19,255 nt of DNA from Bacteroidales bacterium (GTDB lineage Bacteria; Bacteroidota; Bacteroidia; Bacteroidales; ML635J-15). Each line of letters starts with the position of its first letter. Position 1 is the first letter of the stretch. Shown here in pieces: positions 2-15,061 of this stretch. A program made the position numbers and the translations under genes. The stretch lies in assembly GCA_028697515.1 (NCBI GenBank), contig JAQVEY010000002.1, forward strand, positions 1 through 19,255, read 5' to 3'. The notes under the pieces were generated by a model. The model did not search any database. It saw nothing but the letters and a program-made list of their open reading frames with translations, and was not told the DNA's origin.

Positions 2-871
2 GATGATTATTACGCAAGCGTTAACGGCTATGTTGGACAATCTAACGTTCTTAATGTTTTCGATAATGACTTATTAAACGGAAATCCAGTTAATCCAGTG
101 GAAGTAATACTTACCGAGACAGTTCCTGAGCCCAATGGATATCTGATACTAAATCCTAACGGAAGTGTTGATGTTATTGCTGGAATTCCAGCAGGAACCT
201 ACAGCCTTACCTATATGATATGCGAGGTTCTAAATCCAACAAATTGTGATGATGCAATCGTTACAGTTCGTGTTGAGCCTCCACAAATCATTGCGGTTGA
301 AGATAATGCTACTGGTGTAAATGGATTTGCTGGTGAAACAGACGTTCTTAATGTGTTTGACAATGACTTGTTAAATGGTGCTCCAGTTGATCCTTTTGAG
401 GTCACTCTCGAAGAAACAGTTCCAGAACCTAATGGCTATCTTGTATTAAATCCTGATGGTTCGGTTGACGTTCTTCCTGGAACGCCTGCTGGAACATACT
501 CTTTAATTTATGAAATATGTGAAATTTTAAATCCTACTAACTGTTCTGATGCTCCAGTATTTATTACTGTTCTGGCAGCTGTTATAGCAGCAAATGATGA
601 TGATTTTAGCGCTGGCGCTGTTGATTGCGAGACTGGCGGTGTTGCAGGCAATGTCCTTTTAAACGACTTTCTTGATGGAGTTGCAGTAAATTCAGGCGAC
701 GTAATTATTACACTAGTTGACGATGGTGGAATTACAGGTGCTTCGATTGACGCAGCAGGTAACCTTACCGTTCCGGCTGGAGTTGCAGTGGGAAGTTATT
801 TGCTTGAGTATAGCATTTGCGAAACAATAAACCCAACAAACTGTGATTACGCATTTATTACTGTGGTGATT
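2..871 (+). repeat. Three tandem Ig/cadherin-like protein repeats (99-codon period)
   Basis: Copy 1 (2-298) and copy 2 (299-595) align without gaps over 99 codons. They share NVFDNDLLNG, ETVPEPNGYL, NPNGSVDV/NPDGSVDV, PAGTYSL and a conserved LNPTNC near the end. The third copy (about 596-871) is diverged but keeps a LLNDFLDG motif and INPTNC. Further copies probably lie upstream of the window. Confidence 0.85.
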
Positions 872-3800
872 GAAGATACAGAATTGCCAGTTATCAATTG
901 TCCTGCTGATGTAAATGTTAATAGTGATCCAAGTTCGTGTGAAGCTACAAACGTTGTTATCGGAACTCCAACTGTTAATGATAATTGTGGAGTGAACACT
1001 GTAACTGGTGTTAGAGATGATATGTTGGCTTTAACAGATCCTTATCCTCTTGGAACTACAACTATAACTTGGACTGTTACAGATTTTGGCGGCAATTCAG
1101 CAACTTGTGACCAACTTGTTGTCGTAACTGATATCGAACTTCCAACAATAGTATGTCCTGCTCCAGTAGCAGTAAACACTGATGCTGATGAATGTACTGC
1201 AAGCGGTGTAGTTCTTGGCACACCAACAGTTGACGATAATTGCTCAATTCTTTCTGTAACAAATGATGCTCCTGCAGTATTCCCAATCGGAACAACAACC
1301 GTAACTTGGACTGTAACCGATGGTAGCGGAAACATTGCAACTTGTGAACAAATCGTAACAGTAACAGATATTGAACTACCAACAATAGTATGTCCTTCTC
1401 CAGTAGCAGTAAACACTGATGCTGATGAATGTACTGCAAGTGGTGTAGTTCTCGGCACACCAACAGTTGACGATAATTGTTCAATTCTTTCTGTAACCAA
1501 CGATGCTCCAGCAGTATTCCCAATCGGAACAACAACCGTAACTTGGACTGTAACCGATGGTAGCGGAAACATTGCAACTTGTGAGCAAATCGTAACAGTA
1601 ACAGATATTGAACTACCAACAATAGTATGTCCTGCTCCAGTAGCAGTAAACACAGATGCTGATGAATGTACTGCAAGCGGTGTTGTTCTTGGAACTCCAA
1701 CAGTTGACGATAATTGCTCAATTCTTTCTGTAACAAATGATGCTCCTGCAGTATTCCCAATCGGAACAACAACCGTAACTTGGACTGTAACCGATGGCAG
1801 CGGAAACATTGCAACTTGCGAACAAATCGTAACCGTAACTGATATTGAACTTCCAACAATAGTTTGTCCTGCTCCAGTAGCAGTTAACACTGATGCTGAT
1901 GAATGTACTGCAAGTGGTGTAGTTCTTGGCACACCAACAGTCGACGATAATTGTTCAATTCTTTCTGTAACAAATGATGCTCCTGCAGTATTCCCAATCG
2001 GAACAACAACCGTAACTTGGACTGTAACCGATGGTAGCGGAAACATTGCAACTTGTGAACAAATCGTAACTGTAACCGACATCGAACTTCCAACAATAGT
2101 TTGTCCTGAGGATATTGTTTCTTGTTCAAATGTAATTGAACTTGTTGAGCCACTGGTTTCAGACAATTGCGGGATTGACCAAATTTCTAATAATGCTCCT
2201 GTTATATTCCCAGCTGGAACAACAGCTGTAAACTGGATTGTAACTGATGTTAATGGAAATATCTCATCTTGCGAGCAACTTGTTCACGTTTCCTTAATGA
2301 ATGTAGATGTAGAGGCTTCATCTCAAGTAAGCTGTACTGATGCAAGCGATGCTGTAATAAGTGTTACCGTTGAGGGAGCATTTGGAGAAGTAACTTATTC
2401 TCTAAATGGAGGAACTCCACAAGCGTCAAACATTTTTGAAGGCTTATCTGCTGGAGAATACACAGTTCTTGTTGAAGACGAGAATGGATGTTCTGTTTTA
2501 ACAGAGGAAATTACTATTACTAATCCAACTCAAATTGAAGCTGAAATTATCGTATCTTCTCAAGTCTCTTGTTTCGATGGCAATGATGCTTCTATAGAGG
2601 TTTTGGCCACTGGTGGAACAGGTCAGTTTACATATTCTATAAATGGTGGAGCTCCTCAAACATCAAATATATTTGAAAACCTTGCTGCCGGAACTCATAC
2701 AGTTGTGGTTGAGGACGAGAACTTATGTTCAACAACTTTAACTGATATAGTAATTGAAAATCCAGAAGCGTTACAAGTATCCTATACTGTACAAGACGAA
2801 ATATCTTGCTTTGGTTCAGAAGACGGAACAATTGAGGTTTTCGTTAGCGGTGGAAGTGGAGTTTACACAGTTGTATTAACAAATACAACAAACGGTCAAG
2901 AAAATAGTCTGAACAGTTCATTCATATTCGATAATTTAGTTGCTGGAAGTTATACAATAAGAGTTACTGACTCTAATGGATGTTCAGAACTAATAAATGC
3001 AACTTTACAAACTCCAGAAGCGTTAGAATTAAGCTATTCACCATTCTGTGAAGCAGGAATTGTTGGAATAGAACTAAATGCAAACGGAGGTCTAGGAACG
3101 CCAATGTTCTCAATTGACGGTGGACAAAGTTGGACAGAATCCAGTAGTTTTACCAATTTGGTAAATGGCACAACTCTCTCTCTTATCGCAACAGATGCAA
3201 ATGGATGTTTGACAGGAATAGTCAATGTGCCAGTAGAAAGCTTAAACACTCTCAACGCTAGTGCAGAAGTTGTTTCAGAGAATGCATGTTATGGTGTTGC
3301 CGATGCTGCTATACAAATAAATATTGTTGGTGGTGTGGCTCCTTATACATTTACAGTAAACGGAACCGATGTGCATTACTCTGACTTAATTGCCAGCTTA
3401 AATGCAGGTGATTATGTTATTCAAATTCGTGACGCTAACGAGTGTCCGGCTGTAACAGAAATTTCAATCGAAAGCAGCGAAGAAATAGAAATTGATTTAG
3501 TTTCAAAGACTAATGCAGATTGTAATGGAAACAGCGATGGAACTGCTGAGATTGATGTTTCTGGTGGATTTGGAGAATTTGATTACAATTGGACAAATGG
3601 TTCTACAGGTAGAATTGTTGCGGACCTAAATGCTGGGACTCACACTGTTACTGTTACCGATCTAAGAGGCTGTGAAGTTACATACGATGTAATTATAGAA
3701 TCAGATGTAATTGGTGTTGAATTGGTAATGAATACTGTCTTTACACCAAACAACGATGGTATTAACGACCACTTTGTAATTTCTAATCTGGAAATGTATC

Positions 3801-3976
3801 CAGAAAACGAACTAGTTGTTATTAACCGATGGGGTAACGAAGTTTATAGTAAAAAATCTTACGACAACTCATGGGATGGTAGCAATCTAACCGAAGGGAC
3901 ATATTTTTATGTGCTGAAAGTTAAAATGTGTGATGAATATAAAACCTTAAATGGATATATAACAATTCTTGAGTAA
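2..3976 (+). CDS. Giant T9SS-exported repeat adhesin with HYR, SprB-type repeats and CHU_C sorting domain (5' end outside window)
   Basis: The frame is open from base 2 with no stop upstream. Its first visible residues already match a repeat that recurs at 299, so the gene starts before the window; the GTG at 98 is internal. 1324 residues are visible. Domains in order: three Ig/cadherin-like repeats with a DNDLLNG-type motif (residues 1-290), six HYR domains (about 291-765; motif PxIxCP...DNC...G.TTVTWTVTD.SGN...C), about six SprB-type repeats (about 766-1240; motifs such as SCFDGNDA, GTHTVTVTD..GC), and a CHU_C gliding-motility C-terminal domain (about 1243-1324; VFTPNNDGIND, NRWGNEVY, W.G...EGTYFYVL). 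CHU_C is the type B T9SS signal, so the product is inferred to be cell-surface or secreted and to act in adhesion or gliding. HYR and SprB repeats support adhesion, but the ligand is unknown. PorP/SprF and PorE-like genes follow directly, the usual context for such cargo. Confidence 0.93.
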   Translation, partial: DDYYASVNGYVGQSNVLNVFDNDLLNGNPVNPVEVILTETVPEPNGYLILNPNGSVDVIAGIPAGTYSLTYMICEVLNPTNCDDAIVTVRVEPPQIIAVEDNATGVNGFAGETDVLNVFDNDLLNGAPVDPFEVTLEETVPEPNGYLVLNPDGSVDVLPGTPAGTYSLIYEICEILNPTNCSDAPVFITVLAAVIAANDDDFSAGAVDCETGGVAGNVLLNDFLDGVAVNSGDVIITLVDDGGITGASIDAAGNLTVPAGVAVGSYLLEYSICETINPTNCDYAFITVVIEDTELPVINCPADVNVNSDPSSCEATNVVIGTPTVNDNCGVNTVTGVRDDMLALTDPYPLGTTTITWTVTDFGGNSATCDQLVVVTDIELPTIVCPAPVAVNTDADECTASGVVLGTPTVDDNCSILSVTNDAPAVFPIGTTTVTWTVTDGSGNIATCEQIVTVTDIELPTIVCPSPVAVNTDADECTASGVVLGTPTVDDNCSILSVTNDAPAVFPIGTTTVTWTVTDGSGNIATCEQIVTVTDIELPTIVCPAPVAVNTDADECTASGVVLGTPTVDDNCSILSVTNDAPAVFPIGTTTVTWTVTDGSGNIATCEQIVTVTDIELPTIVCPAPVAVNTDADECTASGVVLGTPTVDDNCSILSVTNDAPAVFPIGTTTVTWTVTDGSGNIATCEQIVTVTDIELPTIVCPEDIVSCSNVIELVEPLVSDNCGIDQISNNAPVIFPAGTTAVNWIVTDVNGNISSCEQLVHVSLMNVDVEASSQVSCTDASDAVISVTVEGAFGEVTYSLNGGTPQASNIFEGLSAGEYTVLVEDENGCSVLTEEITITNPTQIEAEIIVSSQVSCFDGNDASIEVLATGGTGQFTYSINGGAPQTSNIFENLAAGTHTVVVEDENLCSTTLTDIVIENPEALQVSYTVQDEISCFGSEDGTIEVFVSGGSGVYTVVLTNTTNGQENSLNSSFIFDNLVAGSYTIRVTDSNGCSELINATLQTPEALELSYSPFCEAGIVGIELNANGGLGTPMFSIDGGQSWTESSSFTNLVNGTTLSLIATDANGCLTGIVNVPVESLNTLNASAEVVSENACYGVADAAIQINIVGGVAPYTFTVNGTDVHYSDLIASLNAGDYVIQIRDANECPAVTEISIESSEEIEIDLVSKTNADCNGNSDGTAEIDVSGGFGEFDYNWTNGSTGRIVADLNAGTHTVTVTDLRGCEVTYDVIIESDVIGVELVMNTVFTPNNDGINDHFVISNLEMYPENELVVINRWGNEVYSKKSYDNSWDGSNLTEGTYFYVLKVKMCDEYKTLNGYITILE
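1130..2077 (+). repeat. Four near-identical 237-bp HYR-domain repeats
   Basis: The units start at 1130, 1367, 1604 and 1841, each exactly 237 bp (79 codons). At protein level they are identical except for one Ala-to-Ser change after the first CP motif in the second unit. Each holds four cysteines. At DNA level they differ at scattered synonymous sites; for example the unit at 1604 uses GTT..GGA-ACT where others use GTA..GGC-ACA. Diverged HYR domains flank the array (872-1129 and from 2078). Confidence 0.95.
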
Positions 3977-4025
3977 ATCTGTTAAATTAGAAACAGTCAA
4001 AATAAAATAAATGAATATAAATATG

Positions 4026-4125
4026 CAAATAGAACACAAAATTTGGTCAGGGTCTGATAGCTTTACAAGAAACTGTAAATGCGTGGATCTAATATTTTGC
4101 GGACTAAATAATTGTGTTCTATTTG
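4026..4125. repeat. 100-nt inverted-repeat/long-hairpin element between adhesin and porP
   Basis: A perfect 14-bp inverted repeat pairs 4026-4039 with 4112-4125. After a small internal loop the pairing continues for 8 bp (4041-4048 with 4102-4109, one G.U). An apical 6-bp hairpin (4062-4067 with 4074-4079, loop AGAAAC) lies inside, extended by two G/C pairs across a bulged T at 4080. The distal arm ends 16 nt before the porP start codon. No T-tract follows, so it is not a standard intrinsic terminator. It could be a structured 5' leader of porP, a small RNA, or a REP/MITE-like element. I do not recognise the family. Confidence 0.7.
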
Positions 4126-4141
4126 AAAAACAATAATAATT

Positions 4142-5095
4142 ATGAAAAAGACATATACTATATTAATCGCTTTACTGTTTGGTACAAGTTTGTTCGCGCA
4201 GCAAAACTTTATAACAAATCAGTATATTTTTAATCCTATGACTATTAATCCCGCTTACGCTGGGACAAAGCAATGGACAAGTATTAACATGCTGTATTCT
4301 GCCCCCTGGTCAGGTTTGGAAGGGGCTCCAAACACACAATCGTTTAGTATTGAGGGTTCTCCAATATCAACAATGGGATTGGGCTTACAGTTAATTAATG
4401 ATAGGATAGGTGCGGAATCAAGACAGTCTTTATGGGCTAATTACTCATATATCTTAAAATTAAATAAGAAATTGAATCTTTCTATGGGCTTAGCTGCAGG
4501 AGTATCTTATTTTAGCTTAGATGGTCGTAAACTTATTTCCGAATCGATTGATGATCCTTCTGTACCACTAAATCGAGTTAATTCGATTCGCTTTGACCCA
4601 AAAATGGGTATTTTCCTTTATTCTGAAAGATTCTATACAGGACTCTCAGTTACTGATATGCTAGGAAATTTGATTGAATCTCCGGATGGATTTGTTTCAA
4701 AACAAGAAAGACATTATTATTTAACTGCCGGGTATGTGTTTGATTTAGGCGAAGATGTAAAGGCGAAACCTAGTATTTTAATTAGAGAAGATTTTAAAGC
4801 ACCAACTAATATTGATGTGACGACACATTTCTTAATTAAAAAAACATTTTGGATTGGTGCGACATATCGTTTTGGGGCTAACTTTTTTACTAGTCAAAGC
4901 TTAGATAACACTTTACGTAAACGTGATGCATTAATTGTAATGACTCAATTTAATATTAATCCATCATGGGTAATAGGGTATTCATATACTCACTCTCTTA
5001 CTGCTTTAAGCAGTTTTGCTGGGCATGAAATAATGCTTGATTATACTTTGCCTAGAAAAGTTGAAACAAGGATGAAAACGCCTAGATATTTCTAA
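4142..5095 (+). CDS. PorP/SprF family type IX secretion system membrane protein
   Basis: A 317-residue outer-membrane beta-barrel protein. A signal peptide (MKKTYTILIALLFGTSLFAQ, cleaved near residue 20) is followed by the family hallmark NQYIFNPMTINPAYAG (residues 26-41) and a conserved W-S-G-L-E-G-A-P segment near residue 60. The rest alternates amphipathic strands rich in aromatic residues and glycines (LSMGLAAGVSYF, FYTGLSVTDMLGN, WIGATYRFGANFF). Family knowledge: PorP/SprF proteins are outer-membrane partners of the T9SS, and paralogues encoded beside type B (CHU_C) cargo assist export or attachment of that cargo. That fits the adhesin directly upstream and the PorE-like gene 44 bp downstream. 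The length is typical. The start ATG is preceded by an A-rich stretch and by the inverted-repeat element. Confidence 0.93.
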   Translation: MKKTYTILIALLFGTSLFAQQNFITNQYIFNPMTINPAYAGTKQWTSINMLYSAPWSGLEGAPNTQSFSIEGSPISTMGLGLQLINDRIGAESRQSLWANYSYILKLNKKLNLSMGLAAGVSYFSLDGRKLISESIDDPSVPLNRVNSIRFDPKMGIFLYSERFYTGLSVTDMLGNLIESPDGFVSKQERHYYLTAGYVFDLGEDVKAKPSILIREDFKAPTNIDVTTHFLIKKTFWIGATYRFGANFFTSQSLDNTLRKRDALIVMTQFNINPSWVIGYSYTHSLTALSSFAGHEIMLDYTLPRKVETRMKTPRYF

Positions 5096-5139
5096 GTACA
5101 ATATTGAAATTAAAGAGAAAAACTTAAAAAATTGAAATT

Positions 5140-7158
5140 ATGAAAACAAAATATACCATATTAACTCTAATTCAAATCTTATTATTTGCAGGTTTTACAT
5201 TTGCTCAAACAAGTTTACCAGTTGCTGAACAACAAATGCAAAAGTTTGATTATGTAAAGGCAATAGATATGTATCTTAATCATTTTATAATAAACAAGCC
5301 TAACGATACAGATATCAGAAATATGTCATATTGTTACATTAAGATTAATGACACGAAAAATGCAGAAATCTGGCTGTCAAAAGTAATTCAATCAGGGTCG
5401 GCAACATCAGAAGACATTATTATCTATGCTGATTTGCTAAAATCAGAAGGAAGGTACATTGATGCCATAGTATATTATCAAAAACTTAAAGAAGAAGACC
5501 CGTCTAAATCAAAATTTGCTGATGAAAATATTAAGATTTGTGAAGAGGTTTTGGTTTGGTTAGAATCAGAACCAGATTTTGTTGTAAAAAATGAAGAGAA
5601 ATTGAATTCAGTAAATTCAGATTTTGGGATTGTTAATTTTGGTGAAAGCTTTATTTTTACTTCGGATCGCATTCCCCCAGTTTCTGGATCATCACAGAAT
5701 ATGGTTTATGGATGGACTGGTAATCCGTACTTAAAGCTATATGAAGTTAATATGAACAAATCTGATAGCATCAGAGATATTTCTATTATGTCCGAATTAA
5801 ATAACGATTATCATAATGGACCAGGATACTTTGATGTAAAAACGAATACTTTTTATTTTACACGAACAAAACTTGTTAAACAAAATAGCAAGACTCAGAA
5901 TCCTGACCCAACAGCTTGGTTTAAAGAGAAAACAGATATTTACACAAACAGACTTGAGATATACAAATCTGAGATAGTTGATGGAAAATGGCAAGAAATT
6001 ATCGAATTCGAGCATAATAATGCGGAGGCTTATTCTATTGGACATCCAGTATTGTCACCTGATGGAAATATATTATATTTTGTGTCGGATATGTCTGGAG
6101 GATTTGGAGAGACTGATATTTATTACAGTGAAAAGCTTCTCTCAGGAAAATGGAGCAATCCACAAAATATTGGAGGCGAACTAAATACAGCAGGAAAGGA
6201 ACTCTTCCCATCATTTGACGCTGACGGGAAATTATATTTCGCGAGTGATGGGCATATTGGAATGGGTGGTTTGGACATATTTAAATCTACAGGAAGTAAA
6301 ACTAGCTGGACAAGTCCCGAAAATCTTAAATATCCATTAAACTCTCCAAAAGATGATTTTGCAATAATTTTCACAGAACCAGATAATATGGGTTATCTTG
6401 CCTCTAATAGATATGGTGGAATAGGCAGTGATGACATTTATAGTTTTGTTTATTCACCGCCTCCTCCACCGATTCCTACTGAACTTATTTTAGCTGTTAC
6501 CACATTCGAAACACTTGACGATGGAACCATACAGCCTTTGGAAAATGTTGATTTGCATTACCATAAGAATGGAGATGGTTCGAAAGTTTCGCTAATTCCT
6601 ATTTATCCAGGAATGTATCAGGCAGTAATTGATTGTGATAGCGATTATATTGTAAACGGAGAAATTTCAGGTTATTTTACTCAAACCACAACAATAAAGA
6701 CTAAATGCGAGACTATGAACGATACGGTTTTTGTTCAACTGATGTTTGAAAGAATTGTCATTAACAAACCAATAGTAATTGAGAATATTTATTATGATTA
6801 TGATAAATGGGATATTCGTCCAGATGCAGCATTGGAATTAGATAAAATAGTTACTCTGCTTATCGAGAATCCAACAATTATTATTGAGTTAGGATCGCAT
6901 ACCGACTCACGTGGTAGTGATAAATACAATGAAACTTTGTCTCAAAAACGTGCCGAATCTGCAGTTCAATATATTGTGGAGCATGGAATTGTTGCTGATA
7001 GAATTACTGCCAAAGGCTATGGTGAGTACAAACTAGTTAATAAATGCTCAAACGGTGTAAAGTGTAGCGAAGAAGAACATCAGCTAAACCGCCGTACCGA
7101 ATTTAAAGTTACTGGTTTCAGTAAAGAACAGCCTATAATATATAGTACTGTGGAATAA
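5140..7158 (+). CDS. PorE-like OmpA family protein (TPR, beta-propeller, CRD, OmpA)
   Basis: A 672-residue exported envelope protein. Signal peptide 1-22 (ends FTFAQ). TPR-like helices run about 25-125. A PD40/WD40-like beta-propeller spans about 150-437, with blades such as GHPVLSPDGNILYFVSD, ELFPSFDADGKLYFASD and SNRYGGIGSDDIYSF. A proline linker (439-446) leads to a carboxypeptidase-regulatory-like beta domain (about 447-535) and a C-terminal OmpA peptidoglycan-binding domain (about 545-660; YYDYDKWDIRPDA, GSHTDSRGSD.YN..LS..RA, NRRTEF). This order is that of Porphyromonas gingivalis PorE, which binds peptidoglycan and associates with PorP of the T9SS. By inference it anchors the upstream PorP/SprF and adhesin complex to the cell wall. 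The OmpA Asp and Arg positions that contact diaminopimelate look intact. It is the last gene of the + strand module before a terminator. Confidence 0.9.
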   Translation: MKTKYTILTLIQILLFAGFTFAQTSLPVAEQQMQKFDYVKAIDMYLNHFIINKPNDTDIRNMSYCYIKINDTKNAEIWLSKVIQSGSATSEDIIIYADLLKSEGRYIDAIVYYQKLKEEDPSKSKFADENIKICEEVLVWLESEPDFVVKNEEKLNSVNSDFGIVNFGESFIFTSDRIPPVSGSSQNMVYGWTGNPYLKLYEVNMNKSDSIRDISIMSELNNDYHNGPGYFDVKTNTFYFTRTKLVKQNSKTQNPDPTAWFKEKTDIYTNRLEIYKSEIVDGKWQEIIEFEHNNAEAYSIGHPVLSPDGNILYFVSDMSGGFGETDIYYSEKLLSGKWSNPQNIGGELNTAGKELFPSFDADGKLYFASDGHIGMGGLDIFKSTGSKTSWTSPENLKYPLNSPKDDFAIIFTEPDNMGYLASNRYGGIGSDDIYSFVYSPPPPPIPTELILAVTTFETLDDGTIQPLENVDLHYHKNGDGSKVSLIPIYPGMYQAVIDCDSDYIVNGEISGYFTQTTTIKTKCETMNDTVFVQLMFERIVINKPIVIENIYYDYDKWDIRPDAALELDKIVTLLIENPTIIIELGSHTDSRGSDKYNETLSQKRAESAVQYIVEHGIVADRITAKGYGEYKLVNKCSNGVKCSEEEHQLNRRTEFKVTGFSKEQPIIYSTVE

Positions 7159-7308: not shown

Positions 7309-7800
7309 ATGAAAACGAAAGAATACAATATCACAGTAGAAAAACATGCCGACGGGCTGTACAGATTCATTCTCGGAAATATAAGAGATGAATTTAAAGC
7401 TCAGGATATTGTTCAAGATAGCTTTGAAAGATTATGGATAAATCATGACTCTGTTGAATTTGACAAAGCAAAATCTTTTCTTTTCAAAATCGCTTATAAC
7501 AGAATGATTGATATTATTCGCCATGATAAAAGAATTAATAGTCAAAGTGAAATTTTTGAGCGAGTTGACGATATTACCGACTTCCGTCAGGCAGAGCTTA
7601 GAGAAATAATAAATAATGCTTTGACTAAACTGAGCGAGATCCAGCGTTCGGTAGTTTTATTACGTGATTATGAAGGCTATACTTATGAGGAAATTGCTCA
7701 GATAACCGATCTTAGTGAAGCTCAAGTGAAAGTTTATATCTTCAGAGCAAGACAACACATGAAAAATTACTTAGGAAAATTTGAGGAGGTAATAAAATGA
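7309..7800 (+). CDS. ECF-type RNA polymerase sigma factor (sigma-70 family)
   Basis: A 163-residue protein with the two-domain layout of extracytoplasmic-function sigma factors. Sigma region 2 covers about residues 10-75 (AQDIVQDSFERLW; KSFLFKIAYNRMIDIIRHDKR, -10 recognition helix). Region 4 covers about 100-155 (LSEIQRSVVLLRDYEGYTYEEIAQI, then the recognition helix LSEAQVKVYIFRARQHMKNY). There is no region 1 or 3. The stop overlaps the anti-sigma gene as ATGA, so translation is coupled. A GTAAC-N17-CGTC promoter directly upstream suggests autoregulation. Targets probably include its own operon with the barrel protein. The inducing signal is unknown. Confidence 0.95.
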   Translation: MKTKEYNITVEKHADGLYRFILGNIRDEFKAQDIVQDSFERLWINHDSVEFDKAKSFLFKIAYNRMIDIIRHDKRINSQSEIFERVDDITDFRQAELREIINNALTKLSEIQRSVVLLRDYEGYTYEEIAQITDLSEAQVKVYIFRARQHMKNYLGKFEEVIK

Positions 7801-8791: not shown

Positions 8792-9796
8792 ATGAAAACA
8801 ACTAAATTTTTATCAGCAGTAATCGGGATGATTTTATTATCAGCTGTAATAACGGCCAACGATTACAGAGAGTATGGTGATGATACTATTAGAATTAAGA
8901 CCAAGGATAATTCGGAGATGATTTTAATAATAAATGAATTTGATGATTTTAACGGATTGTCACTCGAAGTTGAATCGGTTATGAATAGTCTTGAAGATGT
9001 TTTGTTTGAGTTGGAATCAGAACTCGAAAATCTTGATTCAGTAATTAATGTAAATGTTAAAAATATTGATAATGAAATTGTAATCGATATAAAAGGCGTT
9101 TCAGATAACGAAGACAAGATTATTAATTTGAATTATGACATGAATGATGAACCGAGAAAAGAAAGAACATTACATGGTTTTATGACTTATGATTTTGGAT
9201 TTAATAATTATCTCGAAAATGGAAAATTTCCGAATGATGTAAATGCTCAATATGCTGCAAAACCTTGGGGTTCGTGGAATTTTGCAATTGGTGGTGGGTT
9301 ACGTTGGTACTTCACTAAACCTGTATCAATTGATATCGCAGCAGATTTCTCATGGTATAATTTTAAATATCAGGACAGGAGTACAAGAGTTAACAAGACC
9401 GATGACGATATCGTTTTTAGTACAGATGCTTTAGGAGCAGAATATATTAAAAGTAAAACATCAGTTCCATATCTTAATGTAAGTCTTATTCCGATGGTTC
9501 ATTTTGGCGCTCACAATAGTGGTGTTAATCATCGTGATTTTAGATTGGGGCTTGGCGTTTATGCAGGATATCGTTTGGGCGGAAGTGTTAAATATGTTTA
9601 TGAAGTGGATAATGTGAAAATGAAATACCATAATACCGGAGATTATTTTCTCAACACATACAGATACGGTGTAAAAGCAGTTTTAGGATATGCAGACGTA
9701 AATGTCTTTGCTTCTTACGATTTAAGTACATTATATGCAGAAGGAAAAGGCCCAGCACTTAACCCAATTTGTTTTGGTCTTAATTTTACATTTTAG
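8792..9796 (+). CDS. Exported outer-membrane beta-barrel protein of the ECF sigma cassette
   Basis: A 334-residue protein. Signal peptide about 1-22 (MKTTKFLSAVIGMILLSAV, then ITAND). An acidic region without aromatic strands follows (residues 24-125), including a Glu/Leu-rich stretch (VESVMNSLEDVLFELESELENL) that may form a helix or short coiled coil, with isoleucine/valine-rich strands either side. From about residue 127 the sequence is barrel-like: FMTYDFGFNNYL, WNFAIGGGLRWYF, VSIDIAADFSWYNF, GLGVYAGYRLGGSVKYVYE, AVLGYADVNVFASYDL, ending LNFTF. The terminal Phe is typical of BAM substrates. It lies 50 bp after the anti-sigma gene and before a terminator, so it is the third gene of the operon and a probable target or sensor of the circuit. 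No specific function is recognised. Confidence 0.8.
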   Translation: MKTTKFLSAVIGMILLSAVITANDYREYGDDTIRIKTKDNSEMILIINEFDDFNGLSLEVESVMNSLEDVLFELESELENLDSVINVNVKNIDNEIVIDIKGVSDNEDKIINLNYDMNDEPRKERTLHGFMTYDFGFNNYLENGKFPNDVNAQYAAKPWGSWNFAIGGGLRWYFTKPVSIDIAADFSWYNFKYQDRSTRVNKTDDDIVFSTDALGAEYIKSKTSVPYLNVSLIPMVHFGAHNSGVNHRDFRLGLGVYAGYRLGGSVKYVYEVDNVKMKYHNTGDYFLNTYRYGVKAVLGYADVNVFASYDLSTLYAEGKGPALNPICFGLNFTF

Positions 9797-9817
9797 AGTT
9801 TATCAATGCATGTAAGC

Positions 9818-9849
9818 AAAAGCCACTCTTTTTAGGAGTGGCTTTTTTT
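9818..9849 (+). terminator. Strong Rho-independent terminator after the barrel gene
   Basis: A perfect 11-bp stem pairs AAAAGCCACTC (9818-9828) with GAGTGGCTTTT (9836-9846), loop TTTTTAG, within a T run to 9849. It lies between convergent genes. Read on the minus strand only four T follow the stem, so it would be weaker for the lipoprotein operon ending at 9918. Confidence 0.92.
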
Positions 9850-9917
9850 GTATTTGCTGATGGTACAAGGACTTAGCCAATATGATACATTAGCCATACT
9901 GGTATATTTATTATTTT

Positions 9918-10706
9918 TTACAATTCTTCCAGAAGCCCTGCAGAACTACTATTGTAAAGATTCCAATAAGTCTTATTATTGTATTTAATAAACAAAGTGT
10001 CTCCTTCAGGATAAATTCCTACAAGAGTGTCAGCAGGGTATGAGAAACCATTATTAAAATCGATATTGAATTTATAATTATTAAATGAGGGTAATCCCTG
10101 ATATAGACTTGGGTTATCCCATATTCCATCAATATTTACATGCTGATCGTCACGAGTTGACCAAACTTCAATTTGTTTGCTTTCGCTTCCATCGTAGCTA
10201 TAACCATACAGAAAAATTGTAGCAGTGTTATCACTAGACCAAAAAGTGAATTTTAAAGACTCGGTGCAAATTACAGGATAAGACTCAATAATAACATTAT
10301 TTCCGGCGGTAATTACGATTTCGTCTCCTGTTGGGTCAACTTTTATTCTTTTTGCTTCTGCATCAGTATGATTACCAACATAAACTATACCTGTAGCACG
10401 TGCATATTGGTATTTGATTTTTCCATCGACATATTCTCCAGCACTTGTCGTTAGCTCTAATTCGAAACCGGTTGGATCTGCATCTGTAGTTATTTTAATT
10501 GTAATTTTCCCATCAACGGCATCTTCTGGGGCTACTTGCAAATCATATTGTAAACTCTCAAAACCAGGATATAATGAGGTTAAATTAGTATTACTGTTGG
10601 TTAGCACAAGGATAGGAGTTTCGATACTTTGTTCGTCTTTTTTACATGAACTGAAAATCGCGGCAATTGCCACTGTTAATAAAAATAAAGTTGTAATTTT
10701 TTTCAT
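9918..10706 (-). CDS. Putative surface lipoprotein, unknown function
   Basis: A 262-residue protein with an N-terminal lipoprotein signal: basic start MKKITTLF, hydrophobic core, then FSSC with the lipidated cysteine at residue 21. The residues after it, KKDEQ, resemble the Lys-plus-acidic lipoprotein export signal that directs Bacteroidota lipoproteins to the cell surface, so surface exposure is plausible (inference). The mature part is beta-strand rich (GKITIKITTDAD, GFELELTTSAG, DTLFIKYNNKTYW) and low in lysine-rich helices, consistent with one or two beta-sandwich domains. I recognise no family. It is the last gene of a minus-strand set, 16 bp after the 480-residue exported protein, so the two are probably co-transcribed. 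Confidence 0.8.
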   Translation of the reverse strand: MKKITTLFLLTVAIAAIFSSCKKDEQSIETPILVLTNSNTNLTSLYPGFESLQYDLQVAPEDAVDGKITIKITTDADPTGFELELTTSAGEYVDGKIKYQYARATGIVYVGNHTDAEAKRIKVDPTGDEIVITAGNNVIIESYPVICTESLKFTFWSSDNTATIFLYGYSYDGSESKQIEVWSTRDDQHVNIDGIWDNPSLYQGLPSFNNYKFNIDFNNGFSYPADTLVGIYPEGDTLFIKYNNKTYWNLYNSSSAGLLEEL

Positions 10707-10722
10707 AAATAGATAGATTAAA

Positions 10723-12165
10723 TTAATAAATATTAGTTGCGTTTAATACTTTGTACTGCGGTTTTACGTCTTCCACAAACATTACTACATTTTTTGATGT
10801 AATATTTTCCGTATGATTCCACTTTGGATTGTAGAGTGGGTAAAAACTGTTTTCATAATATCCTTTATCGTAGGTAACTTCGACTTTTCGTTTTACATAA
10901 ACTTTTACATTTGTGTAAACATACTGACTGAGAATTGTTTTTCCAATAGATTCTGCAACATCCCAGAAACCACCGCTAGTACCACGTTCGTTTTCAATAA
11001 TTAAGTAATAATTCATACGATGATCACGAATTTCGAATTTCCCTTGTGCATATCCGTTTTTACCTTCTTGAAGCACTGTATAAGCTTGTCCTGTTATATA
11101 TTTCTCATATTCGGGTTGGGTTAAAATTTTGTAAATTACCTGGTCTTCAATTTTAGGAATAAAAGATCCAATAGCTTGACCAGCTAATTCACTCAAACCT
11201 GTAAATCCTGTTATAACCTGAACGCCATCGCTTACAACTACAGTCGTTTCATTTCCAGTCTGAGTGCCAATATCCCCCGAAATGCCTGCTATGGCGTTTG
11301 CGGTTGAAGCTTTATCAAAAACCTCATAAGTCTTTTTAGTTTTAGAAATAGCTCCTGTGGCATCTGCAGTTCCAGACATTGCCTTTCCCACACCAGCATC
11401 AATTGCCATTGTTGCAATCTGTCCAACTTTTTTCTGTAAGGCTTTATAAACTTCATCCCCTACAGAAATTGTAAACCCCCATTCAATTGATTTTGAGATT
11501 TTATAATCTGTAAGAATTTCTTGTGGCATTACAATTGGAATTACAAATTTATTATCTATTCTAAGTGCGTATGCAATATCCATAAATATTTGATCCTCAG
11601 TATATTGAGGGGTTCTCTGTTGTTTTATCTGAGGAGTGGAAACTCGCATATAGTCGTAAATTACCGAATCTGCTTGATAAGAATGAACAGTATCAGGAAC
11701 CTGTACCATTACTGCTTTTCTCTCTACAAAATCACCAGTTCCATTTTCATTGTCACAATGAACAGTAAGTTCAGCTGTAAACTTTTTCATACCCCCACGT
11801 TGAATAACAAGAGTATAAATACCATCAGAAGGCACAGTTATTTTAAAGTTAAATTCTCCAACATCATTCTTGTCTATTATGTGCTGAAAAGCCTCGTCGG
11901 CATTCTGCCTATATAGCTTCACATTTTTAATTGTGTGAATTGTTCCTTTATTTTCATTTTTCATTTCTGGACTAATGTTTATCCATAGTTCTTCTCCGCG
12001 ATAGGCTCTAAAATAAAAAGTCTCGTCATTGATTTCTTTGTTTTCACTGTAAATGACTCGAACATTTTTCTGTGCTGCCATTGTTAATGATGAAACAATA
12101 AAGCTAAAAAACAATAAGCCAATTAAAGGCATTTTTATGATAGTCTTTAATTTATAATTTACCAT
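10723..12165 (-). CDS. Exported protein of unknown function, distant paralogue of the upstream gene
   Basis: 480 residues. The N-terminus MVNYKLKTIIKMPLIGLLFF.. is a signal peptide, probably cleaved near residue 31; Met12 is an alternative start. Residues about 35-137 form a beta-sandwich-like region (FYFRAYRGEELWINIS, NVKLYRQ, FNFKITVPSDGIYTLVIQR). A middle block (about 155-235) includes IPIVMPQEILTDYKISKSI and WGFTISVG. Residues about 240-335 are rich in Ala, Gly, Thr and Ile with few aromatics and may be helical and membrane-seeking. The C-terminal part (about 336-480) has strand-like segments (DQVIYKILTQPEYEKYI, MNYYLIIENERG, YTNVKVYVKRKVEV). The order and several motifs match the 380-residue protein encoded 19 bp upstream, so a duplication is inferred. 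No enzymatic motif is visible and no known family is recognised. Confidence 0.75.
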   Translation of the reverse strand: MVNYKLKTIIKMPLIGLLFFSFIVSSLTMAAQKNVRVIYSENKEINDETFYFRAYRGEELWINISPEMKNENKGTIHTIKNVKLYRQNADEAFQHIIDKNDVGEFNFKITVPSDGIYTLVIQRGGMKKFTAELTVHCDNENGTGDFVERKAVMVQVPDTVHSYQADSVIYDYMRVSTPQIKQQRTPQYTEDQIFMDIAYALRIDNKFVIPIVMPQEILTDYKISKSIEWGFTISVGDEVYKALQKKVGQIATMAIDAGVGKAMSGTADATGAISKTKKTYEVFDKASTANAIAGISGDIGTQTGNETTVVVSDGVQVITGFTGLSELAGQAIGSFIPKIEDQVIYKILTQPEYEKYITGQAYTVLQEGKNGYAQGKFEIRDHRMNYYLIIENERGTSGGFWDVAESIGKTILSQYVYTNVKVYVKRKVEVTYDKGYYENSFYPLYNPKWNHTENITSKNVVMFVEDVKPQYKVLNATNIY

Positions 12166-12184
12166 TTATAATTTGTTATTTGAG

Positions 12185-13327
12185 TTATTTTTGAAAAACA
12201 TATTTTTTTTCATTCTTAATTACCTCCATCGACATTGGAATTTTTTCAACCACTGGTTTTATTGTAACAATGTCCTGACTTATCTGAGACCATGTTGTTG
12301 TTTGATAAACTGCATAAGTAGCGACACTTATTTTTATCTCGGCGAGGATGTTTAGATTTTGTAATCCAATATAAATCACATCCATAGGAGACCAGTTTCC
12401 TGAGTATCCTGTAGCCAGACCAGATTCGTAAACCATTGGGTTTGTGTTGTTATCATTGTCCATAAACTTGTCAAGCTCGGTTTTGTCAGCCATTATAAGA
12501 TAATAAACAGGTTCCCCACCTTCTTGAGGAGCTACCATAGAAAACATCGTTTCTACACCTAATCCAATAGCAGCACCACCTGGAACAAACAGGCTTAATG
12601 CTAAACATCCTACATCCATACCTGTGCTTATTGCATTCCACATTGACTCCGCACCTGCCTCCGAAGTTATAAGAATCTGATAACCGACCAAAACCATTTG
12701 TTTATTATCGGATAAAATTGTATCCTGAGGTTTGGTAATTGTTGCATAGTTTTTCTGTCCACCCTTTAGTGTGTATTTTTTTGCAGATATTTGGGTGCTT
12801 TCATAGTCAACATCTGTAATTATTTTGAAGTATGACGGTTCTCGAAATTCTTTATAATCAACAACTTGATTTATTTCATATTGATGGATAACTGTATCAT
12901 AGTTCTTAGTGAGTTCAATTGCTGTATTAAAATATCTTCCACCAATATATTCTGCTTTTCGCATAAGTCGCAACTCTATATCTTGACTAAAAGATCTAAT
13001 CGAAAATGTAAACTCTACAACTCCGGTTTCAACAATATTAATTTCGATTTGTCTGGTTGGGTCGTAGTCTTTTTCTGAAAAAAGCACTTTAGAGTTTTGC
13101 GTAATGGTAATCTGATCAATAGTTTTGTCCTTTTTTGTGGCTAAGTTTAAATAAAGTACATCTCCTTCATGAAATGTATAGTCCAAAATAGCGGGTGAAT
13201 TTTTGCTGATATTTATATCTCTCATAGCAACCAAGTAGGTGTCGTAAGACAAATCTATTTCTTGTGCGTTGAGAAATGCTGCTGACAAAAGACTAATAAT
13301 CAGCAAATACTTTTTAATTTTATTCAT
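12185..13327 (-). CDS. Exported protein of unknown function with a hydrophobic Gly-rich segment
   Basis: 380 residues. Signal peptide MNKIKKYLLIISLLSAAFLNA, cleaved about residue 21. N-terminal beta-sandwich-like region (about 25-123; YTFHEGDVLYLNL, ITITQNSKVLF, VVEFTFSIRSF, IELRLMRK). Middle block (about 143-222) contains DTVIHQYEI, KPQDTILSDNKQMVLVGYQILI. A hydrophobic, glycine-rich stretch at about 226-270 (CLALSLFVPGGAAIGLG core) could insert into or pack against a membrane. C-terminal strands (VYYLIMADKTELDKFM, MDVIYIGLQN, AEIKISVATYAVYQ) correspond in order to the 480-residue neighbour. It heads the minus-strand three-gene run (gaps 19 and 16 bp). A roughly 460-bp intergenic region with inverted repeats and a possible microprotein precedes it. 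Function unknown. Confidence 0.75.
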   Translation of the reverse strand: MNKIKKYLLIISLLSAAFLNAQEIDLSYDTYLVAMRDINISKNSPAILDYTFHEGDVLYLNLATKKDKTIDQITITQNSKVLFSEKDYDPTRQIEINIVETGVVEFTFSIRSFSQDIELRLMRKAEYIGGRYFNTAIELTKNYDTVIHQYEINQVVDYKEFREPSYFKIITDVDYESTQISAKKYTLKGGQKNYATITKPQDTILSDNKQMVLVGYQILITSEAGAESMWNAISTGMDVGCLALSLFVPGGAAIGLGVETMFSMVAPQEGGEPVYYLIMADKTELDKFMDNDNNTNPMVYESGLATGYSGNWSPMDVIYIGLQNLNILAEIKISVATYAVYQTTTWSQISQDIVTIKPVVEKIPMSMEVIKNEKKYVFQK

Positions 13328-13372
13328 TATTTGTAAATATTTTATTCAACAATAATTTTCTAAACAGTTTTG

Positions 13373-13435
13373 CTATCCAGCTAAAATTGATGCAACTAAT
13401 AGCGTTGCTAAAATTAAAATCATAGTATTATTCAT
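13373..13435 (-). CDS. Possible 20-residue hydrophobic membrane microprotein
   Basis: The minus-strand ATG at 13435 opens a 20-codon frame ending in TAG at 13373. The peptide begins MNNTM and continues ILILATLLVASILAG, so about three quarters is aliphatic or small, enough for one membrane span. Its start is preceded by an A-rich stretch like those before other genes here. It lies 45 bp before the 380-residue exported protein on the same strand, so it could be the first gene of that operon, a leader peptide, or chance. AT-rich DNA yields short ORFs often, so the case rests on composition and position only. Confidence 0.35.
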   Translation of the reverse strand: MNNTMILILATLLVASILAG

Positions 13436-13514
13436 TTTATAAGACTTTTTATAATTAGTAAATATCTGTTTTGCTTATTTTCTGAAAATTGCACAGCTCA
13501 CAAATAAAATTCAT

Positions 13515-13551
13515 TCACTATACTAAAAACCATACTATTTTTAGTTAGTGA
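13515..13551. repeat. Bulged 13-bp inverted repeat upstream of the exported-protein cassette
   Basis: CACTA-t-ACTAAAAA (13516-13529) pairs with TTTTTAGTTAGTG (13538-13550) with one bulged T, plus a closing T-A pair. The loop is CCATACTA. It is 80 bp upstream of the microORF start and next to a weak TTTATTTG box (13501-13508, minus strand), so it could be an operator. No T-tract suits a terminator. Confidence 0.55.
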
Positions 13552-13649
13552 TAAAAAAAGTCAATTAACCATAATTTTTCAAGCACGCAGAATCCATTTT
13601 TCTGAAACATGGCTACAAAAAAATAAAATAAAACAAAACAAAAACCTGA

Positions 13650-13672
13650 TTTTTGTTAGCTGGTAACAAAAA
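13650..13672. repeat. 9-bp perfect inverted repeat (TTTTTGTTA / TAACAAAAA)
   Basis: The arms 13650-13658 and 13664-13672 are perfect complements around GCTGG. On the minus strand the hairpin is followed, after a 5-nt gap, by a long T-rich stretch, so it may be a weak terminator for the peptidase gene ending at 13790. The AT-rich stem makes an operator equally possible. Confidence 0.45.
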
Positions 13673-13789
13673 GAAGTAAAAATAGTACTTAAAGACAGTA
13701 TTTTTATCTTACTTTCTTATGGGAAAAATGGTAAGTTTTTCAGGATTAGAATTTTAAAATTAGGCTCCTATAAAAAGTACATAATGATA

Positions 13790-15061
13790 TCAATTTTCCA
13801 CATCCTTAACTTCAATCGGAATGTCTGTACATAAATCCAAAGGTTTATAACCAACCAAAATATCATTTTCTAGCCTGATACCGAAACCTTCATCAACAAT
13901 GTAAATAGCCGGTTCACAGCTTAGAATCATTCCTGGAAGAAGTATTGTGTCTTTTGTCCCTACATCATGCACATCAAGTCCTATGAAATGAGAAAGCCCA
14001 TGCATAAAATATTTTTTTAATACAGGGTTCTCAGAATCTTGTAATAGGATATCCTTTTTTGTTAATAATTTTAATTTTATAAGTTCTTCCTGTATCAGTA
14101 ATTCACATTCTTCATTTAATTTACGGATTGTTGTTCCTGGTATCATTTTGCTTTTCATGTGTTTCATGACACTTAGCACAGAATTGTAAACTTCTTTCTG
14201 TCGGGAAGTAAATTTGCCCGATACGGGGATTGTACGGCTAAGGTCGGCTGCATAATAATCTACTTCAGCTCCAAAATCCAGCAATAATAAATCTCCAGCC
14301 TTACAACGGTTATGGTTTGTGTTGTAGTGCAAAACACAATTATTCGAACCAGATGCGCAAATCGGCAAATATGCGTGACCTTCAGCTCCAGCAGATAAAA
14401 ACGAACGAGTAAGTTCAGCTTCAATTTCATATTCCCAGCAGCCCGGTTTAACAAAATTACGTATTTTATCAAAAGCTTCTCCTGTAATATTAATTGCCAT
14501 TTGAGTTGCAGCAATCTCTTGTTTGGTTTTTTGCAGTCTTAAGTTAATAGAAATCGGATCGAGATCGTTAAAGAATAAATTTTGACAGGACTTTTCTATA
14601 TTTTGTTTCCACTCACGAATAGCAGGGTTTTGATAATCTGAACCACGAATATTGGATTTATATGAATAATATATTGTCGTGGTTTTACTTAAAAAAGAAT
14701 TCATTATTTCATCAAACTTATTGATGTACTCAATATTAAAAATACCAGAAATATCTGAGGCTTCTTGTTTAGAATATTTATGCCCAATCCATGTAAGCAT
14801 TTTTTCGTCGGGTTCTATAATAAAAGCATATTCTTCAACACGCTTATTTGTAGTATCGTTAAAGAGTACAATTATTGTTTTTTCCTGTGTAAGACCGCTA
14901 AAATAATAGGTGTCCGAATTTTGTCTATATTTATAAAACTGGTCTCCATTGCGGGGAAACTGTTCGGCTGAGAATAATACCACTACTGAGTTTTGTAATA
15001 ATTGTGTGTAGAGTCTTTTGCGGTTAGCGACAAAAAACGATTTGTCAAAATGTTTTTCCAT
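13790..15061 (-). CDS. pepP: Xaa-Pro aminopeptidase (aminopeptidase P, M24B family)
   Basis: A 423-residue cytosolic metallopeptidase that removes the N-terminal residue when proline is second. The N-terminal aminopeptidase P domain spans about 1-135 (FVANRKRLYTQLLQ...RNGDQFYKYRQNSDTYYFSGL). The pita-bread catalytic domain spans about 175-415. All five expected metal ligands are present: Asp262 (LLLDFGAE), Asp273 (AADLSRT), His358 (HGLSHFIGLDVHD), Glu383 (SCEPAIY) and Glu398 (GIRLEND). His354 and His365 of the HGLSH..GLDVHD motif match substrate-binding histidines of E. coli PepP. Length is close to the family norm. No signal peptide. It is divergent from the DUF2141 gene with a 70-bp shared promoter region. 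The gene symbol follows the family and is not a proven orthology. Confidence 0.93.
   Translation of the reverse strand: MEKHFDKSFFVANRKRLYTQLLQNSVVVLFSAEQFPRNGDQFYKYRQNSDTYYFSGLTQEKTIIVLFNDTTNKRVEEYAFIIEPDEKMLTWIGHKYSKQEASDISGIFNIEYINKFDEIMNSFLSKTTTIYYSYKSNIRGSDYQNPAIREWKQNIEKSCQNLFFNDLDPISINLRLQKTKQEIAATQMAINITGEAFDKIRNFVKPGCWEYEIEAELTRSFLSAGAEGHAYLPICASGSNNCVLHYNTNHNRCKAGDLLLLDFGAEVDYYAADLSRTIPVSGKFTSRQKEVYNSVLSVMKHMKSKMIPGTTIRKLNEECELLIQEELIKLKLLTKKDILLQDSENPVLKKYFMHGLSHFIGLDVHDVGTKDTILLPGMILSCEPAIYIVDEGFGIRLENDILVGYKPLDLCTDIPIEVKDVEN

Follow-up and report, generated by a model that had tools for sequence, protein, structure and literature searches.

The DNA analysed here (positions 1 to 19,255 of contig JAQVEY010000002.1, assembly GCA_028697515.1, from a Bacteroidales bacterium of the lineage ML635J-15; hereafter the window) contains three adjacent genes, A, B, and C, encoding exported proteins. 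We propose, with slightly less than even confidence, that they form an accessory cassette, acquired or lost as a whole in Bacteroidales genomes, whose products build one envelope assembly with A and B as a complex and C as its anchor. An undescribed three-gene unit at this position had been suggested in a preliminary description of the sequence, and it is supported by (i) the gene order, kept as A-B-C in all four inspectable genomes, (ii) the co-variation of A and B, and (iii) an empty site in a genome of the same genus.

The coordinates of the open reading frames (ORFs) bear out the earlier account of three large genes on one strand, with gaps of 19 bp between A and B and 16 bp between B and C. 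Its claim that each large protein carries an export signal also holds: translations read by eye start with signal sequences in A and B, and in C the lipobox SSC precedes KKDE. The cassette is contiguous in the window and in two related contigs (L006 and L007); in the fourth genome, G200, it is split over two contig ends (L018 and L019), with an extra lipoprotein-like ORF between B and C. Contigs L008/L009 and L010 repeat L018/L019 and L007, respectively, and were not counted again. Among clusters of database proteins, contig identity was inferred from equal length, with only the longest contig listed per cluster; equal longest contigs were found for A and B in 10 cases, for A and C in 6, for B and C in 6, and for all three in 4, and some of these contigs are only 3.3-3.9 kb long. 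The distance matrices of A and B are correlated (r = 0.90, Mantel p = 1e-4) over 11 pairs, of which 10 share an equal longest contig and one joins the window A to a near-copy of the window B; the correlations for A-C and B-C over 5 triplets are 0.98 and 0.91, respectively.

In the congener G018, the M24 aminopeptidase and outer-membrane-protein-like genes that flank the cassette in the window are adjacent, their stop codons lying 75 bp apart. Similarity to the window stops at position 9804 and resumes at 13789, and therefore G018 has the site without the 3,984 bp holding the cassette. This empty site is more simply explained by gain of the cassette in the window lineage. B is present in 2 of 26 genomes of the genus and in 4 of 393 sampled genomes of the order, one of them (G036) by virtue of a distant relative; A is present in 4 of 100 relatives, including two distant ones. 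Because of this rarity and the empty site in G018, we regard the cassette as an accessory unit. In the other congener with the cassette, G002, the cassette resides on contig C66, and the M24 and outer-membrane-protein-like genes on C5 and C19. The cassette may have moved between genomes; no integrase or transposase was detected by Pfam among 14 window ORFs scanned, no relatives were found in plasmids (searched with B), phages (searched with A), or viral contigs (searched with B), and a short-repeat check of the cassette ends revealed no target-site duplications of 8-14 bp.

The relationship of A and B, described earlier as two paralogues, is real, although it is seen only through profiles and intermediates and is invisible to pairwise comparison: BLASTP of A against B gave E = 0.19 and no alignment, whereas hhalign aligned their profiles over 208 columns (A residues 3-222) with a probability of 95.9 and E = 5.8e-9. 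Both profiles also recognise intermediate proteins at L004 and L013 (A1, 1.5e-35 and 1.2e-17; A2, 5.5e-9 and 1.5e-8), as well as further distant relatives. Phylogenetic analysis of 67 proteins resolved A and B as one clade each (support 100/99 and 100/100, respectively), and therefore their split looks old and single; the tree tool warns of possible misplacement of the long branches that separate A, B, and the remaining proteins. Members at L076, L120, L123, L125, and L126 are excluded from the tree, and 3 of 25 A proteins (P0007, P0009, and P0025) and 3 of 35 B proteins (P0031, P0059, and P0060) were left out of the alignments as shortened, partial, or near-copies (P0009 equals P0008 at 366 of 381 positions).

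Structure prediction assigns the same architecture to both paralogues: an N-terminal GOLD-like sandwich, long strands (A residues 142-187 and 331-373; B residues 151-184 and 415-463), and a second sandwich interrupted by a helical insert, which in A is hydrophobic and 50 residues long. The N-terminal domains of A and B are predicted to adopt the GOLD beta-sandwich fold, and the Foldseek matches of B include p24 GOLD domains, with template modelling (TM) scores on the target of 0.70-0.76. Whole-chain Foldseek matches to pentameric channels, capsid proteins, CUB domains, and viral proteins were discarded, with query TM-scores of 0.08-0.22 and a root-mean-square deviation (rmsd) mostly above 40 A. 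The inserts are modelled at low confidence, the predicted local distance difference test score (pLDDT) being below 50 at residues 236-269 of A and 238-338 of B. Their length is steady across the family (44-56 residues in A, 106-112 in B), and their mean conservation exceeds that of the rest of the protein (0.74 vs 0.62 in A, 0.69 vs 0.64 in B). When the signal peptide is disregarded, the highest hydropathy over 19 residues lies at 1.55-1.92 in 21 of 22 A proteins; reading the segments places this peak in the insert for 20 of the 21.

Comparison with known proteins places A and B near, and outside, several described groups. They share the predicted GOLD-like head with p24/TMED proteins (PF01105, EMP24_GP25L) at 8-14% identity to the p24/TMED rows; in contrast to the latter, they are bacterial and exported, contain a second, interrupted sandwich, and lack a C-terminal transmembrane helix, the C-terminus being predicted as a long strand. 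The tandem beta-sandwich ectodomains of SIDT1/SIDT2/SID-1 and DeCLIC fit A and B domain by domain, whereas the two-domain rmsd is about 49-62 A, and neither A nor B continues into a transmembrane channel or transporter domain. The second sandwich may be PPC-like; unlike the PPC domains and the C-terminal domain of Tk-SP, it is not associated with a protease here, and that of B is split by 106 residues.

No meaningful family for A, B, or C was found in Pfam, NCBIfam, PADLOC, or PHROGs (lowest E = 0.015), and a PDB sequence search gave no relative of the three proteins, in agreement with the initial impression that none belongs to a recognised family. PADLOC returned no family at E<=1, and by this criterion the genes are not assigned to anti-phage defence. 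At the same threshold, neither A nor B matches PF01105, let alone at its gathering score, and none of the three proteins carries a C-terminal type IX secretion signal domain of Pfam. Among the relatives, the best PF01105 matches have E-values of 0.0073 and 0.002, in one member each; other family scans gave scattered matches in one or two members each. Database proteins at E<=1e-3 number 25 for A, 35 for B, and 17 for C (including the window's own or a near-identical entry); the few legible names read "hypothetical protein", and the named organisms are metagenome-assembled genomes of Bacteroidales. Judged by sequence, A, B, and C are conserved genes. Among the papers on GOLD domains and GOLD-like proteins in bacteria listed by one open-access library, no description of the A/B family was found, and the one listed for Bacteroidetes concerns ACBD proteins; the fold is already known, and the family and the cassette are undescribed in the libraries and literature searched.

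C resembles the Bacteroidetes lipoproteins with an export signal in that its C-K-K-D-E fits the consensus C-X-K-(D/E)2, which is described as optimal for surface export in Capnocytophaga (PMC5080379). In the C family alignment, CKK is invariant after the cleavage site and the consensus fits 17 of 18 rows. Thus, C is probably displayed on the cell surface, to judge from this motif. In contrast to the surface lipoproteins known to use this signal, C is of no known family, and no SusC/TonB-dependent transporter is encoded among the 14 window ORFs scanned. A faint match of C to the BSAP-5i immunity family (NCBIfam, E = 0.07) was dropped because the matched region begins with the signal peptide; four further faint NCBIfam matches of C begin there as well. 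Neither is C a widespread family: 41 of 393 genomes of the order have a match, but the match spans nearly the whole protein in only four (G000, G292, G200, and G203). The remaining 37 cover N-terminal parts only, mostly the signal peptide and lipobox (E-values from 1.5e-8 to 9.7e-4), reach at most residue 164 of 262, and were not counted as members; the borderline ones are in G276 (residues 5-164), G354 (1-126), G072 (1-114), and G417 (1-113).

A profile built from five distant relatives detects members of a wider A/B family in 16 of 395 genomes of the class (window included), representing 15 of 197 genera. In two genomes of the same genus, G576 and G482, the member lies between genes for Pvc16_N and eCIS_core proteins, with a sheath gene nearby, that is, in a locus of an extracellular contractile injection system (eCIS). 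Because of the G576 locus, dependence of the window cassette on such a system was considered. It was rejected, as no sheath gene was found in G000 and the cassette lies outside any eCIS locus; the sheath search was likewise negative in G292 and G200, and the match in G002 is on contig C92, apart from the cassette. Two other distant members (L117 3205-7577 and L122 11506-15977) have in common a neighbourhood with a conserved protein of 620 aa, a small conserved ORF, and a gene resembling response regulators; of the 24 loci that were compared, 5 contain genes of this regulator family. The distant member at L123 7242-8385 (G1077) appears to be divided into two neighbouring open pieces of 64 and 265 aa.

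Several observations weigh against a single, mobile, membrane-contacting assembly. The preliminary description would have taken homologues that mostly stand alone as a refutation. In the wider family they do stand alone, the neighbourhoods of the 15 other members (6.5-17 kb) having no B or C gene in any and, except for G576 and G482, little in common, whereas A and B proper do not in the four genomes read. A near full-length relative of C occurs without a detectable B gene in G203 (contig L093, 3130-3906); this 9.4-kb contig holds neither A nor B, and A was not searched genome-wide in G203. Among the protein clusters, 15 of 25 for A and 25 of 35 for B have no partner of equal length, including 8 and 10, respectively, on contigs longer than 10 kb; because the list gives just the longest contig of each cluster, these neither show nor exclude that A and B occur apart. 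The co-variation of A, B, and C is also expected from plain vertical co-inheritance. The empty site could have arisen through loss in G018, where searches for A and B were negative in a genome that is 88% complete and C was not searched. On the structural side, the predicted TM-score (pTM) of the whole models is low (0.43 for A and 0.40 for B), and since the inserts are mostly below a pLDDT of 50, the case for membrane contact comes from hydropathy; the best hydropathy of B does not exceed 1.44, and among 15 distant relatives it is below 1.4 in nine and peaks outside the insert in two of the other six. Finally, the export consensus matched by C comes from Capnocytophaga.

With these points in mind, we suggest the following scheme for the proposed assembly. 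A and B, as exported paralogues in which a GOLD-type sandwich is followed by long beta-strands and a second sandwich with a conserved helical insert, would most likely pair as a two-subunit complex. The inserts, and the hydrophobic hairpin of A in particular, may dock on or enter a membrane, and the GOLD heads may bind a partner or cargo. C, through its surface-export signal, would most likely anchor or display the complex on the outer membrane. We infer that all three proteins act in one envelope complex; its purpose could be competition or a surface interaction tied to a particular niche, either of which would be in keeping with an accessory role.

The same data can be read in other ways. 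A structural or adhesive surface assembly, such as a stalk or filament in which GOLD/PPC-like sandwiches and 45-residue strands are tethered by C and the inserts are assembly joints, would draw on the very long strands predicted in A and B, the surface-display motif of C, and the further lipoprotein-like genes flanking the cassette in L007 and L018; we hold it to be rather unlikely. A similarly modest probability is given to three independent envelope genes sharing a promoter, that is, a periplasmic sensor or chaperone pair and an unrelated lipoprotein that form no joint complex. The distant relatives lacking B or C alongside, the C gene without a B match in G203, and the abundance of lipoprotein-like genes around the cassette in L007 and L018 favour such independence; however, the order is held in four of four genomes, the genes are co-located on several short contigs, and A and B are never apart in the four genomes read. 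A two-component pore-forming or permeabilising system, with A and B released or displayed, GOLD heads recognising a target, inserts unfolding into its membrane, and C anchoring the proteins or protecting the producer, would account for a hydrophobic hairpin at a Pro-Gly turn that is more conserved than the rest of an otherwise soluble beta-protein, for two unequal paralogous subunits, for the patchy distribution with an empty site, and for the relatives inside the eCIS loci of G576 and G482; known pore-formers were not prominent in structural re-alignments, which covered only chains ranked high by Foldseek, and we judge this system distinctly unlikely.

Features of the cassette, its surroundings, and two related loci. 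Positions refer to the window unless a contig is named.
Feature	Position	Strand	Description
Gene A	13327..12185	-	ORF of 380 aa, signal peptide
A residues 34-125	12953..13228	-	GOLD-type beta-sandwich (predicted)
A residues 223-272	12512..12661	-	Insert within second sandwich; two hydrophobic stretches flanking a Pro-Gly turn
Gene B	12165..10723	-	ORF of 480 aa, paralogue of A, same architecture
B residues 35-139	11749..12063	-	GOLD-type beta-sandwich (predicted)
B residues 236-341	11143..11460	-	Gly/Ala-rich helical insert of 106 residues in second sandwich
Gene C	10706..9918	-	ORF of 262 aa, lipoprotein
C residues 21-25, CKKDE	10632..10646	-	Lipidated Cys and C-X-K-(D/E)2 surface-export motif
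Stretch without counterpart in G018	9805..13788		Similarity interrupted
Upstream gap	13328..13789		462 bp between A and M24 gene
20-codon ORF	13435..13373	-	Proposed microprotein, not supported
M24 aminopeptidase P-type gene	13790-15061	-	Upstream of A, same strand
Terminator-like hairpin	9818-9846	+	End of convergent outer-membrane-protein-like gene; 71 bp past C stop
Outer-membrane-protein-like gene	8792-9796	+	Downstream of C, convergent; named by look, no Pfam match
Sigma factor gene	7309-7800		Downstream side of cassette
A/B relative in G576	L076 6592-8112	-	506 aa, intact; locus genes named by Pfam
A/B relative in G482	L120 8088-9659	-	523 aa, intact; locus matched by similarity, same gene order

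The boundaries drawn in the preliminary description require revision. The terminator taken as one limit of the set exists, but it belongs to the plus-strand convergent gene; terminator-like sites in 9700-13900 number 6, compared with 1.6 in shuffles. On the other side, the gap of about 460 bp and its inverted repeats were recovered (a raw count of 16 repeats of 10-21 nt in 13300-13820, A+T-rich, 14 of them imperfect), but the weight given to the repeats is not supported. The promoter of the cassette is presumably located in this gap, where no conserved motif was detected; promoter-like sites over 9700-13900 are not enriched (16 observed vs 20.7 in shuffles). The ORF of the supposed microprotein exists, but it has no counterpart upstream of A in any of the three relatives examined (L006, L007, and L008). 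Rfam and tRNA scans of the window gave no matches.

Gene content beside the cassette varies. Runs of small lipoprotein-like genes were observed next to it in two related genomes (L007 1981-8831 and L018 2386-5550), and related genes also occur near the lone C gene in L093. The stretch L006 3971-8604, beside the cassette, encodes a TPR-CHAT protein (CHAT, E = 1.8e-66) and has two small genes facing the cassette that look by eye like a sigma/anti-sigma pair and have no meaningful Pfam match. In the window, positions 98-7158 are occupied by genes of an ordinary kind linked to type IX secretion: the first (98-3976) encodes a surface protein that combines HYR/SprB repeats with the type IX signal CHU_C, which is present by Pfam, and PorP/SprF and an OmpA-PD40 protein follow.

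The GOLD fold is best known from a cargo receptor of the eukaryotic secretory pathway. The present analysis outlines a patchy exported bacterial family whose head is predicted to be GOLD-like and which has no name in the libraries searched. It also outlines a lineage-specific version of this family comprising three genes, which are gained or lost together at a site that has been mapped. The relative inside contractile injection loci provides a concrete handle on function. In its boldest form, which we regard as improbable, the interpretation would make A and B a new class of bacterial two-subunit membrane-inserting GOLD-fold proteins, related to a protein of some contractile injection loci and encoded, together with a surface lipoprotein as their anchor, on a cassette that moves horizontally, and thus a new membrane-active or docking module in Bacteroidia. 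If the helical inserts do enter membranes, A and B would represent a new kind of two-subunit membrane-active system.

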